A stretch of DNA of 40,127 bases from Trichlorobacter thiogenes (GTDB lineage Bacteria > Desulfobacterota > Desulfuromonadia > Geobacterales > Pseudopelobacteraceae), in the NCBI RefSeq assembly GCF_900167465.1, contig NZ_FUWR01000023.1, positions 1 through 40,127 of the forward strand, read 5' to 3'. The notes below the pieces were generated by a model that was given only the letters and a program-made list of their open reading frames with translations, searched no databases and was not told where the DNA came from. Within the stretch, counting starts at the first letter, position 1. Every line of letters begins with the position of its first letter. This document shows, piece by piece, positions 34,365-39,741 of the stretch. The translations under genes and the position numbers were made by a program.

Positions 34365-34540
34365 GAAGCAGAATATACGATCAACGGTGCCCGCAAGGGC
34401 TTGATAGGGAAGTGAGGTGAAACTCCTCCACGGACCCGCCGCTGTAAGCGATGACAAAGGGCAACACAACCACTGGCTATAATGGCCGGGAAGGTGCCTG
34501 GAGGATGATTCGCAAGTCAGAAGACCTGCCTTGATCTTAC
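34365..34540 (+). promoter_or_regulatory. Cobalamin (B12) riboswitch aptamer
   Basis: The stretch matches the cobalamin aptamer architecture: P1 pairing GATCAA (34379-34384) with TTGATC (34531-34536); GGTGCCCGCAAGGGC; TAGGGAAGTGAGGTGAAA...CTCC; CCGCCGCTGTAAGCGATGAC; CCACTGG...GGCCGGGAAGGTGC; and the B12 box GCAAGTCAGAAGACCTGCC just before the P1 3' strand. It is followed by a short hairpin (34547-34570) and an intrinsic terminator. In this family adenosylcobalamin binding usually stops expression of the downstream gene, here nrdD. Confidence 0.93.
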
Positions 34541-34598
34541 ATCATGAAACTCTCCGGGGACTGGGAGTTGACACGAGATCAGGCGACTTTAAACACGG

Positions 34599-34637
34599 AA
34601 AGTCCGCATGCTGCGTAAGGCAGCTGCGGACTTTTTT
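34599..34637 (+). terminator. Riboswitch-controlled intrinsic terminator
   Basis: Perfect stem with one bulge: AAAGTCCGCA-T-GCTGC (34599-34614) with GCAGC-TGCGGACTTT (34620-34634), a 5-base loop and TTTTTT. It lies after the aptamer and before nrdD, so the OFF state would terminate here. Between aptamer and terminator a hairpin at 34547-34570 may act in the switching. Confidence 0.85.
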
Positions 34638-34663
34638 AGTTTCTGAAACATAAAACCGTTTTT

Positions 34664-34864: not shown

Positions 34865-36871
34865 ATGCAACAGACCACAGCTGCACCGGTTTCCGTCATC
34901 AAGCGTGACGGCGAACGCGCCCCCTTTGAGGCATCCCGCATCAAGTCCGCCATCCAGCGGGCAGGTAAGGCCACCGCAGAATTTGGCGATGATGAGGCAA
35001 ACCTGATCACCAGCCAGGTACTGAAGGTGCTGCGCCATCGTTTTCCCCAGGAATCACCCACCATTGAGCAGATCCAGGATGTGGTGGAGCAGGCGCTGAT
35101 CTCTGCCAACCATTTTGCCACCCTACGGGCCTATGCAGTCTACCGCGAACAGCGCAGCCGTCTGCGCCAGGATCGCAAGACCGTGGTGGATGTAACCGCC
35201 TCAGTCAACGAATACCTTGATCAAAGCGATTGGCGGGTCAGCGCCAACGCCAACCAGGGCTACTCCCTGGGGGGCCTGATCCTGAACCTGTCCGGCAAGG
35301 TGATTGCCAACTACTGGCTCTCTCAGGTCTATCCGCCAGAGGTAGGGGAGGCCCACCGTGACGGCAGCGTGCATATCCATGATCTGGACATGCTGGCCGG
35401 TTACTGTGCTGGCTGGTCACTACGGATGCTGCTGACCGAGGGGTTTAATGGTGTGCCGGGCAAGGTGGAGGCTGGACCGCCCAGGCATCTTTCCAGCGCA
35501 GTGGGGCAGATCGTCAATTTTCTGGGCACCCTGCAGAATGAATGGGCCGGGGCCCAGGCCTTCAGCTCCTTTGATACCTATCTGGCGCCGTTCATCCGCA
35601 AGGATTCACTGACCTACGAGGATGTCAGGCAGCAGATGCAGGAACTGATCTTTAACCTGAACGTGCCGTCTCGCTGGGGCACTCAGACCCCCTTCACCAA
35701 CCTGACCTTTGACTGGACCTGCCCGGATGACCTGAAACAGCAGGTGCCGGTGATTGCCGGTGAGGAAATGCCGTTTAGATATGGCGATCTGCAGGCTGAG
35801 ATGGATCTGATCAACAAGGTCTATATTGAAGTCATGACCGCTGGCGATGCCAAGGGCAGGGTTTTTACCTTTCCGATCCCCACCTACAACATTACTCCGG
35901 ATTTCCCCTGGGAGAGCGAGAACGCGGAACTGCTGTTTACCATGACCGCCCGCTACGGCCTGCCGTACTTCCAGAACTTTGTTAATTCCGAGCTGACCCC
36001 CAACATGGTCCGCTCCATGTGCTGCCGCCTGCAGCTGGATCTGCGTGAGCTACTGAAACGTGGTAACGGCCTGTTTGGTTCTGCCGAGCAGACCGGCTCC
36101 CTGGGGGTGGTGACCATCAACTGCGCCCGCTTGGGGTATCTGCACCAGGGGGATGAGGCAGGGCTGCTGCAACGGCTGGATCAGCTGCTGGAGATCAGCC
36201 GCACCAGCCTGGAGATCAAGCGCAAGGTGATCCAGCGTCATATGGATAACGGCCTGTTTCCCTACACCAAACGCTACCTGGGCACCCTGCGCAACCACTT
36301 CTCCACCATCGGCGTCAACGGGGTTAATGAGATGATCCGTAACTTTACGGCTGATCAGGAGGATATCACCAGCCCGGCGGGTCACGGCCTGGCGGTGCGG
36401 CTGATGGATCACCTGCGGGGGCGGATGGTGCAGTTTCAGGAACAGACCGGCTCTATGTACAACCTGGAGGCCACCCCGGCAGAAGGCACCACCTACCGCT
36501 TTGCACGGGAGGACAAAAAGCGCTTTCCTGCGATTCTGCAGGCAGGCAGCCCGGAGGCGCCGTACTACACCAACTCATCCCAACTTCCGGTGGGGTTTAC
36601 CGATGATCCGTTTGAGGCACTACAACGTCAGGAAGAGCTACAGCGCAAATACACCGGCGGCACCGTGCTGCACCTGTATCTGGGGGAGCAGGTCTCCAGT
36701 GTGGATGCCTGCAAGCAGCTGGTCAAACGCTCGCTGGAACGGTTCCGGCTGCCCTATGTCACGGTGACGCCAACCTTTTCAATCTGTCCCAAGCATGGCT
36801 ATTTAAGCGGTGAACACCATTTCTGTCCGTTGTGCGATGAAGAAATCTCGCGCAGTCAATCCAAGCACTAG
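34865..36871 (+). CDS. nrdD: Anaerobic (class III) ribonucleotide reductase large subunit, lacking the glycyl-radical C-terminus
   Basis: Reduces ribonucleotides to deoxyribonucleotides without oxygen, using a glycyl radical. 668 residues: an ATP-cone regulatory domain (about 9-100; VIKRDGERAPFEASRIKSAI), the barrel domain with HIHDLDMLAGYCAGWSL and SMCCRLQLDL (conserved Cys), and a C-terminal zinc site CPKHGYLSGEHHFCPLC (the ligands are three Cys, perhaps with His). The chain stops 11 residues later. The RVxGY radical motif that normally follows is absent; it is encoded by the next gene. AAGGAG precedes the ATG. It is downstream of a B12 riboswitch. Confidence 0.95.
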   Translation: MQQTTAAPVSVIKRDGERAPFEASRIKSAIQRAGKATAEFGDDEANLITSQVLKVLRHRFPQESPTIEQIQDVVEQALISANHFATLRAYAVYREQRSRLRQDRKTVVDVTASVNEYLDQSDWRVSANANQGYSLGGLILNLSGKVIANYWLSQVYPPEVGEAHRDGSVHIHDLDMLAGYCAGWSLRMLLTEGFNGVPGKVEAGPPRHLSSAVGQIVNFLGTLQNEWAGAQAFSSFDTYLAPFIRKDSLTYEDVRQQMQELIFNLNVPSRWGTQTPFTNLTFDWTCPDDLKQQVPVIAGEEMPFRYGDLQAEMDLINKVYIEVMTAGDAKGRVFTFPIPTYNITPDFPWESENAELLFTMTARYGLPYFQNFVNSELTPNMVRSMCCRLQLDLRELLKRGNGLFGSAEQTGSLGVVTINCARLGYLHQGDEAGLLQRLDQLLEISRTSLEIKRKVIQRHMDNGLFPYTKRYLGTLRNHFSTIGVNGVNEMIRNFTADQEDITSPAGHGLAVRLMDHLRGRMVQFQEQTGSMYNLEATPAEGTTYRFAREDKKRFPAILQAGSPEAPYYTNSSQLPVGFTDDPFEALQRQEELQRKYTGGTVLHLYLGEQVSSVDACKQLVKRSLERFRLPYVTVTPTFSICPKHGYLSGEHHFCPLCDEEISRSQSKH

Positions 36872-36884
36872 AAAGGAATACAAC

Positions 36885-37061
36885 ATGCACTCAAAGCAAC
36901 AGAAAACAGCAATCCCACAGGAACAACGCCAGGCTTGCGAGGTTTGGACCCGCGTGATGGGCTACCACCGTCCGGTGGCATCATTTAACACCGGCAAAAA
37001 ATCCGAGTATGCCGAGCGTACCTTCTTCAAGGAAGTTGCATGTCCAACATCACTGACCTGA
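36885..37061 (+). CDS. Separate glycyl-radical subunit of the class III ribonucleotide reductase (NrdD C-terminal domain)
   Basis: A 58-residue protein, MHSKQQKTAIPQEQRQACEV..., whose core CEVWTRVMGYHRPVASF contains the RVxGY glycyl-radical motif of NrdD (Gly at residue 26) and a typical tail NTGKKSEYAERTFF. It begins 13 bases after the nrdD stop, in another frame, with its own ribosome binding site GAAAGGAA 6 bases before the ATG. A dedicated start and site argue for a true separate gene rather than a sequencing frameshift. NrdG would install the radical on this small protein, which must dock with NrdD. The last ~8 residues (ACPTSLT) are unlike the family and may be altered. Confidence 0.85.
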   Translation: MHSKQQKTAIPQEQRQACEVWTRVMGYHRPVASFNTGKKSEYAERTFFKEVACPTSLT

Positions 37062-37099
37062 TCAAGGCATCAGGCCAGCTACATTCTGGCGCTGCGTGA
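37040..37099 (+). pseudogene. 19-codon frame after the glycyl-radical gene, possible gene remnant
   Basis: ATG 37040 with AAGGAA upstream begins MSNITDLIKASGQLHS and stops at TGA 37097-37099, overlapping both the glycyl-radical gene end and the end of the minus-strand SDR gene. Its normal-looking ribosome binding site and start suggest the beginning of a former third gene cut off when the SDR gene came to lie here. It could equally be chance. Confidence 0.25.
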
Positions 37100-39153: not shown

Positions 39154-39741
39154 ATGCTCACCATCGGCGGCCTGACGCCATTCACCACCATTGATTATCC
39201 CGGCAAGCTGTCTGCCGTCATCTTCTGTCAGGGCTGCGCCTGGCGTTGTGGCTACTGCCATAACCAGCATCTGCTGGATGCCAGCCAGCCTGAAACCGTG
39301 TCGTGGCAGGAGGTCAGCAGGTTTCTTGAACAACGCCGTGGCCTGCTGGATGCTGTGGTGTTTAGCGGTGGTGAGCCAACATTGCAGCCAAATCTGGCAC
39401 AGGCTATTGCAACAGTACGGCAGATGGGATTTCTGACCGGCCTGCATACCGGCGGGCCGTACCCGGAGCGCTTAGCTGCCTGTCTGCCGCACCTAGACTG
39501 GGTGGGGATGGATCTGAAGGCGCCGTTTGACCTGTACGATGCAATTACCTGCGTAAAAGGTAGCGGCAAAGCTGCAGAGCAGAGTGCGGAACTGGTGAGG
39601 TCAAGTAGTGTAACTCACCAGTTCCGCAGCACTGTTGATCCGTTCTTACGTGTAGAGGGCAGGCTTGAAAGACTGCAGCAGATGGTTGCAGGGTGGGGCG
39701 AGCAGCTGGTACTGCAGGAGTGCAATTCGCATGTAAGCTAA
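39154..39741 (+). CDS. nrdG: Anaerobic ribonucleotide-reductase activating enzyme (radical SAM)
   Basis: Radical SAM enzyme that makes the glycyl radical on NrdD. 195 residues: GGLTPFTTIDYPGKLSAVI, then the cluster motif CAWRCGYC (Cys-x3-Cys-x2-Cys), FSGGEPTLQP, GLHTGGPYPERL, WVGMDLKAPFD. The gene ends LVLQECNSHVS, a short C-terminus; many members extend further, so it may be trimmed, although a clean stop is present. Its partner glycyl-radical protein lies 2.1 kb upstream, with an SDR and an alcohol dehydrogenase in between. The ribosome binding site is weak, so it may rely on readthrough from the dehydrogenase gene. Confidence 0.93.
   Translation: MLTIGGLTPFTTIDYPGKLSAVIFCQGCAWRCGYCHNQHLLDASQPETVSWQEVSRFLEQRRGLLDAVVFSGGEPTLQPNLAQAIATVRQMGFLTGLHTGGPYPERLAACLPHLDWVGMDLKAPFDLYDAITCVKGSGKAAEQSAELVRSSSVTHQFRSTVDPFLRVEGRLERLQQMVAGWGEQLVLQECNSHVS

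Follow-up and report, generated by a model that had tools for sequence, protein, structure and literature searches.

Class III ribonucleotide reductases (RNRs) are described in the literature, in the passages available to us, as one catalytic chain, NrdD, working together with NrdG. Family and fold link the locus analysed here to such one-piece enzymes (T4, T. maritima, Prevotella copri, S. thermophilus), and class III enzymes were its top matches by sequence as well as by fold. What sets it apart is a cut between the zinc module and the Gly loop, the latter being a gene of its own. The glycyl radical domain (GRD) of P. copri NrdD (residues 676–739) comprises the zinc site, the Gly711 loop and a tail, according to the passages available of that study (PMC11226230).

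Separate radical-bearing pieces have precedents in other settings. YfiD (GrcA) of E. coli and Y06I of phage T4 are small proteins with a glycyl radical end, phage-borne in the latter case, that substitute for the damaged glycyl radical end of pyruvate formate-lyase (PFL), as stated in the available passages of PMC8683613. These proteins serve PFL, an enzyme that is itself made in one piece, whereas the small protein described here matches NRDD only, and the separate part is the normal form. Pseudomonas aeruginosa has a split class II RNR, NrdJa plus NrdJb, whose C-terminal cysteine-rich domain is likewise a separate gene; there, however, the piece encoded apart has its role in oligomerisation and terminal reduction instead of storing a radical (PMC5704485, in the passages available). 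Among phages, nrdD is the RNR gene most often split, with six cases arising from introns, inteins and fragmentation; the accessible passages of that survey concern interrupted or fragmented genes, in contrast to the conserved stand-alone domain gene reported here (PMC3653736). In the open-access literature, as far as its passages were available, we found neither a class III radical domain with a gene of its own nor phage genes consisting of the GRD only described; prior notice of either elsewhere is possible.

The nrdD locus of Trichlorobacter thiogenes

The window, i.e. the whole 40,127-nt stretch of Trichlorobacter thiogenes DNA that was analysed, carries a riboswitch, an nrdD gene, a small open reading frame (ORF) and an nrdG gene, all on the same strand (Table 1). 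Just as the original prediction had claimed, NrdD is 668 residues long, terminates 11 residues past the last Cys of its zinc site (FCPLCD) and lacks the RVxGY motif on inspection of its sequence; this motif occurs only in the next ORF, which starts 13 nt past the nrdD TAG in a different frame and has its own ribosome binding site.

Table 1. Features of the nrdD locus in the window.
Feature	Positions	Strand	Evidence
Cobalamin riboswitch upstream of nrdD	34367..34547	+	RF00174, 110.3 bits, E 6e-27
Terminator-like hairpin followed by a U-run, between riboswitch and nrdD	34599..34637	+	Folding of 34590-34645
NrdD core: ATP-cone, catalytic barrel, finger loop SMCCRL, zinc-site motif CPKH...CPLC; without glycyl radical motif	34865..36871	+	Sequence, PF13597, PF03477, NF006126
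Shine-Dalgarno-like GAAAGGAA of the GRD gene	36871..36878	+	Sequence
Glycyl-radical subunit (GRD protein), radical site TRVMGY	36885..37061	+	PF13597, alignment of 17
nrdG, radical SAM activase (NrdG2 type)	39154..39741	+	TIGR02495, 185.9 bits, E 4.8e-55

The NrdD core matches the Pfam NRDD profile PF13597 over positions 2–532 of 562 (E 6.6e-173), as well as PF03477 (ATP-cone), and scores 1134.6 bits against NCBIfam NF006126. The small GRD protein, 58 aa in length (MHSKQQKTAIPQEQRQACEVWTRVMGYHRPVASFNTGKKSEYAERTFFKEVACPTSLT), takes up the same PF13597 profile where the match of the core ends (531–562 of 562, E 5.1e-8); NRDD is its sole Pfam match at E ≤ 1, and its NCBIfam matches are RNR models only. 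Because the two chains thus divide the NRDD profile between them, the chain break falls between the zinc module, a putative assignment from the CPKH...CPLC motif, and the glycyl loop. Profile coverage, ATP-cone, finger-loop cysteine, C-terminal zinc motif and an accompanying NrdG place the enzyme in class III; the one feature lacking on the same chain is RVxGY, which defines the variant. The PFL-type glycyl radical domain that marks the GrcA/YfiD spare-part family is not what the GRD protein carries. Finger-loop and zinc-site Cys/His positions are invariant across an alignment of 29 NrdD cores. AF2 models of the core alone and of a naturally fused relative (L088) reached moderate confidence (mean pLDDT 72.1 and 74.9), the GRD part of the latter about 56–71, and both gave class III RNRs as first matches.

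A second NrdD in the same genome was considered and rejected: the PF13597 search of the genome returned no further match, leaving a single pair of core and GRD. Judged by its NRDD match and its recurrence in 17 of the 19 NrdD-bearing genomes of the order, the GRD ORF is not a chance ORF.

What controls this locus? The segment 34,590–34,645 folds at −29.5 kcal/mol (z −6.9 vs shuffles); the hairpin there, which presumably forms the expression platform of the riboswitch, escaped a simple terminator scan and came to light on folding. Other Geobacterales share the riboswitch: at 11 of 14 further loci (L003–L016), nrdD is preceded by one. It was not found at L003, L008 and L012, nor at L045, L070 and L199 from other groups, and L250 has one. 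As the search came up empty at these three Geobacterales and three non-Geobacterales loci, the riboswitch is a local feature. The genome also encodes the B12-dependent reductase NrdJ, and riboswitch and NrdJ together fit a published proposal, as worded in the passages available, that B12 represses NrdDG in delta-proteobacteria (PMC545781).

Two genes, for a short-chain dehydrogenase and an iron alcohol dehydrogenase, separate the GRD gene from nrdG in the window. Inside the end of the GRD gene (37,040–37,075), an ATG plus about ten codons resemble the nrdG start in L039, a relative in which the end of the GRD gene is overlapped by nrdG; in the window, nrdG sits 2 kb downstream. To judge from this sequence, an insertion seems to have opened the operon.

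Distribution, layout and selection of the separate gene

The original prediction called for the split to be sought in Geobacter-type genomes, and there it recurs. NrdD is encoded by 19 of 141 genomes of the order, and in 17 of these an ORF of its own, 52–68 aa long, encodes the glycyl end; in one further genome (G058) this end is fused to NrdD and in another (G018) to the C-terminal part of a gene that is broken elsewhere. The prediction had allowed that all close relatives might turn out fused; instead, the one intact fused case, L003, lies nested among split ones. Core and GRD are spaced by −8 to +234 nt in the 17 split genomes and use all three relative frames, a pattern for which, at the level of sequence, a single indel or frameshifting fails to account. 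The starts listed for the GRD ORFs of the order are preceded by a purine-rich AAGG/AGGA-type site, and 25 positions are invariant among the 17 aligned proteins. The genome that contains L031 and L039 holds a second GRD copy of 135 bp at 92% identity (L039, 4,046–4,180 and 5,423–5,557), which follows a PEP-CTERM ORF, immediately precedes nrdG and has no ATG start. A group II intron was considered at the second GRD copy in G135 and discarded: L031 gave no Rfam match to such an intron. The PEP-CTERM ORF separates the copies.

The original proposal that the strand with the radical normally exists as a chain of its own finds support, and does so beyond the relatives of Geobacter, too. Queried with the 17 small proteins, a genome scan yielded at least 580 relatives, of which the best 80 were kept, a set that leans towards the query: 74 have a core in the locus and the GRD in another ORF, two are fused (L068, L088) and four have no core in the locus. 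Less biased are two samples of Pseudomonadota and Burkholderiales. Among 349 Pseudomonadota genomes, 45 had matches: 12 split (including the seed G199; seven of the 12 checked by sequence), 32 fused and one weak, below the cut-off. As one of the 12, G510, has another type of NrdD, the split is not confined to a single type. Its locus (L352, 486–2,748) shows a full ATP-cone unmatched by the core profile and a chain ending before the radical motif, which lies beyond a single stop in an open frame of 64 codons. In the Burkholderiales sample, 94 of 300 genomes had matches, and 75 of the 94 are split by profile match, 21 of these confirmed by sequence; for loci resting on the profile, a one-frame fusion with a long linker would look like a split. 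By the same profile, 70 cores end short, each with at least one further match in its genome among the matches listed, five more matches run across an in-frame stop, 17 genomes are only fused, one is partial and one has a lone weak match. Sequence checks of 27 Burkholderiales loci gave 16 split, nine fused and two without a GRD within the locus (G1289, G527). One Burkholderiales genome, G1477, has three GRD matches (contigs C3, C6 and C16), two of them on contigs other than that of the core.

Two samples were fetched for short-ending or stop-bearing matches, such that their counts are not frequencies: in the phylum of the window, 80 of 297 genomes exceeded the NF006126 cut-off and 13 of 13 fetched short-ending ones were split, as was L250; in the phylum sample around the genome of L088, 26 of 27 fetched loci were split. 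On the Actinomyces side (the phylum of G197), the forms were mostly fused, and one of the loci over the cut-off, L282, was split; the NrdD proteins of Actinomyces oris and of L205 (Actinomyces) are fused. Short-ending cores came with a further PF13597 match in their genome in 17 of 17 cases in the order and in 10 of 10 others, plus G426 and G510 by sequence check. The fused L068 (Bifidobacteriaceae) has a degraded CxxH...CxxC zinc motif and an intact radical motif; since it nevertheless keeps the Cys that is invariant in GRD proteins, the idea that this Cys is a further zinc ligand was dropped.

Common in Burkholderiales, the split is also present in Pseudomonas, Bradyrhizobium, Paracoccus and Sulfuricurvum, as well as on Cupriavidus necator pHG1. 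The pieces are already present in public annotation: on pHG1 of C. necator H16, core (H16_RS32680) and small ORF (H16_RS32675), followed by nrdG, are both annotated as RNR genes in RefSeq, as are both ORFs on plasmids of Bradyrhizobium ottawaense, Sulfuricystis multivorans and Sulfuricurvum kujiense. A 1999 paper on the pHG1 enzyme reportedly gives an NrdD of about 76 kDa, which we take to be the core. The plasmid layout is the same in C. metallidurans CH34 and Paracoccus denitrificans, where the genes are unlisted. A separate GRD gene is easily overlooked, as the CH34 genome paper illustrates: the passages available give NrdDG as Rmet_5137 and Rmet_5139, with one tag skipped, and by gene order Rmet_5138 is presumably the GRD gene.

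The layout of the two genes is variable. Over 129 distinct split loci, the relative frames are distributed 53/42/34, with all three in use, and gaps in linked loci range from −46 to +415 nt. The chosen GRD start is ATG in all 129 and preceded by an SD-like site in 116, compared with 378 of 3,870 random ATGs in the same loci, although the choice of start itself favours SD. An nrdG gene lies within 400 nt after the GRD in 70 of 74 split loci. Linkage to the core can be lost altogether: G214 has GRD and nrdG on a different contig from nrdD, and in G527 the GRD, with an adjoining NrdG-like radical SAM gene, lies about 9.5 kb from nrdD. Across 43 independent pairs, the cellular split GRD shows 131.7 nonsynonymous and 413.3 synonymous differences (dN/dS about 0.06), a value that reflects purifying selection on the small gene.

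A FastTree of 238 cores (140 split, 98 fused) requires at least eight split/fused changes, five of them forced by starred branches, vs a mean of 75.6 in shuffles, on a tree that was quickly built, carries a long-branch warning and reflects non-random sampling. One clade of 118 rows holds 112 split and six fused cores, and three further clades of five, eight and 15 rows are all split. The position of the fused L003 among split Geobacterales suggests a re-fusion.

Copies in predicted phages and prophage-like regions

GRD relatives are encoded by 182 stretches in IMG/VR, the best 80 of which were kept; one of these 80 has a core within the locus and none an NrdG match. The 48 contigs examined whole range from 8 to 212 kb and are predicted phages, possibly fragments; 47 of them contain no other PF13597 match, and NrdG2 exceeds the cut-off in none. 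The exception, G142, carries a core together with weak radical-SAM matches. Among the 136 flanking ORFs scanned are genes for portal, terminase, integrase, helicase and replication functions, and the GRD matches phrog_4132, whose function PHROG gives as unknown (E 5e-9 for the window protein, E 4e-11 for a phage one). A start codon is present in 71 of 73 phage GRD ORFs and an SD-like site for 53. In some (L136, L152, L172, L173, L189), CEVWTRVMGY is preceded by an N-terminal extension that is rich in Cys and may be a small zinc module. In 50,697 INPHARED records of cultured phages, tblastn with three queries matched 2, 3 and 0 records (three distinct ones, two annotated NrdD and one unannotated), and no GRD gene was recognised.

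Extra GRD copies in cellular genomes sit in similar surroundings: beside endolysin, Rz spanin and integrase genes (L361), Rz spanin and tail fibre genes (L358), or RecE, RecT and a phage-type RNR large subunit (L360). The genomes of these three (G198, G202 and G195) also have a core. By sequence check, a separate GRD adjoins the core in G198 and G202; G195 has separate profile matches in one frame. The RNR large subunit in the phage-like region of L360 (7,718–9,976) is of class I type and encoded in part only.

The idea of an exchangeable part, put forward in the original prediction, gains weight from the unlinked and extra copies and from phage contigs with the small gene alone. Could the GRD, then, be a mobile subunit? 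We see about even chances that it is mobile and exchangeable: bacteria would have split and re-fused the enzyme several times, and phage GRDs would dock onto host NrdD and be charged by host NrdG, restoring or boosting dNTPs, also after oxygen damage. Alternatively, phage GRDs might be decoys that tie up host NrdG or NrdD instead of working parts, which their small size and the lack of core and NrdG on their contigs would suit. This we regard as unlikely, though, for the phage set keeps the radical motif at a dN/dS of about 0.11 (21 pairs), as expected for an active part, and more dNTPs are a gain for a phage.

A probable two-polypeptide enzyme and its alternatives

From the sequence evidence, we hold it highly probable that core and GRD protein bind to form a two-polypeptide class III RNR. 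The 668-aa core, with its ATP-cone, barrel, finger-loop cysteines and zinc module, would bind the 58-aa protein, whose RVMGY loop would take the place of the C-terminal radical loop of a one-piece NrdD; by homology to the P. copri enzyme, as presented in the available passages of PMC11226230, the small protein would supply both loop and tail. NrdG would make the glycyl radical on the GRD protein, probably within the NrdD–GRD complex, from where it would move to the finger-loop cysteine for the reduction of NTPs. The original prediction had NrdG activate the small subunit alone, a step that has found no support so far: in the PFL system, strong activation of YfiD depends on the presence of cleaved PFL (PMC8683613, in the passages available), so NrdG is expected to act on the NrdD–GRD complex, and by analogy activation of this complex is the better guess. 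Oxygen would cut the small chain only, which would then be replaceable. In T. thiogenes, the enzyme would probably substitute for NrdJ, as riboswitch and terminator-like hairpin ahead of nrdD suggest.

Might the short NrdD instead work alone, with its radical elsewhere, and the small protein be merely a repair part? YfiD and Y06I set an example as small repair parts for a one-piece enzyme (PMC8683613, same passages), but the core here has no radical motif, and other cores that stop at the same place were accompanied by another match elsewhere in the genome, among the matches listed, rendering the suggestion very improbable. We give still less credence to the locus being a relic, a truncated nrdD fallen out of use in a cell that has NrdJ. 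The presence of NrdJ and the rarity of any NrdD in the order would agree with disuse; against it stand the invariant finger-loop and zinc-site residues, the low dN/dS of the GRD, the riboswitch kept in most relatives, the retention of nrdG and the split as the commoner form in the Burkholderiales sample. Least credible of all is an artefact or recoding (sequencing indel, programmed frameshift, stop read-through or split intein) that yields one joined chain, because the short gap and frame shift in the window, and the 34 of 129 split loci with both parts in one frame, at each of which read-through is conceivable, are outweighed by gaps that vary through all three frames instead of the fixed frame and short distance of programmed events, by the unlinked genes of G214 and G527, by stand-alone copies in phage contigs and by the lack of any intein domain among the Pfam matches of the small protein at E ≤ 1.

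In many Pseudomonadota and elsewhere, the two-polypeptide enzyme would carry its radical on a small protein of its own. The authors of the YfiD study, in the passages available, raised the prospect of spare parts that serve further glycyl radical enzymes, with only YfiD and Y06I validated (PMC8683613). If the GRD is indeed mobile, spare parts for glycyl radical enzymes would extend beyond PFL, and the GRDs in prophage-like regions of core-bearing genomes make this question directly testable. The two-piece enzyme, moreover, would offer a ready means to swap radical subunits in vitro.
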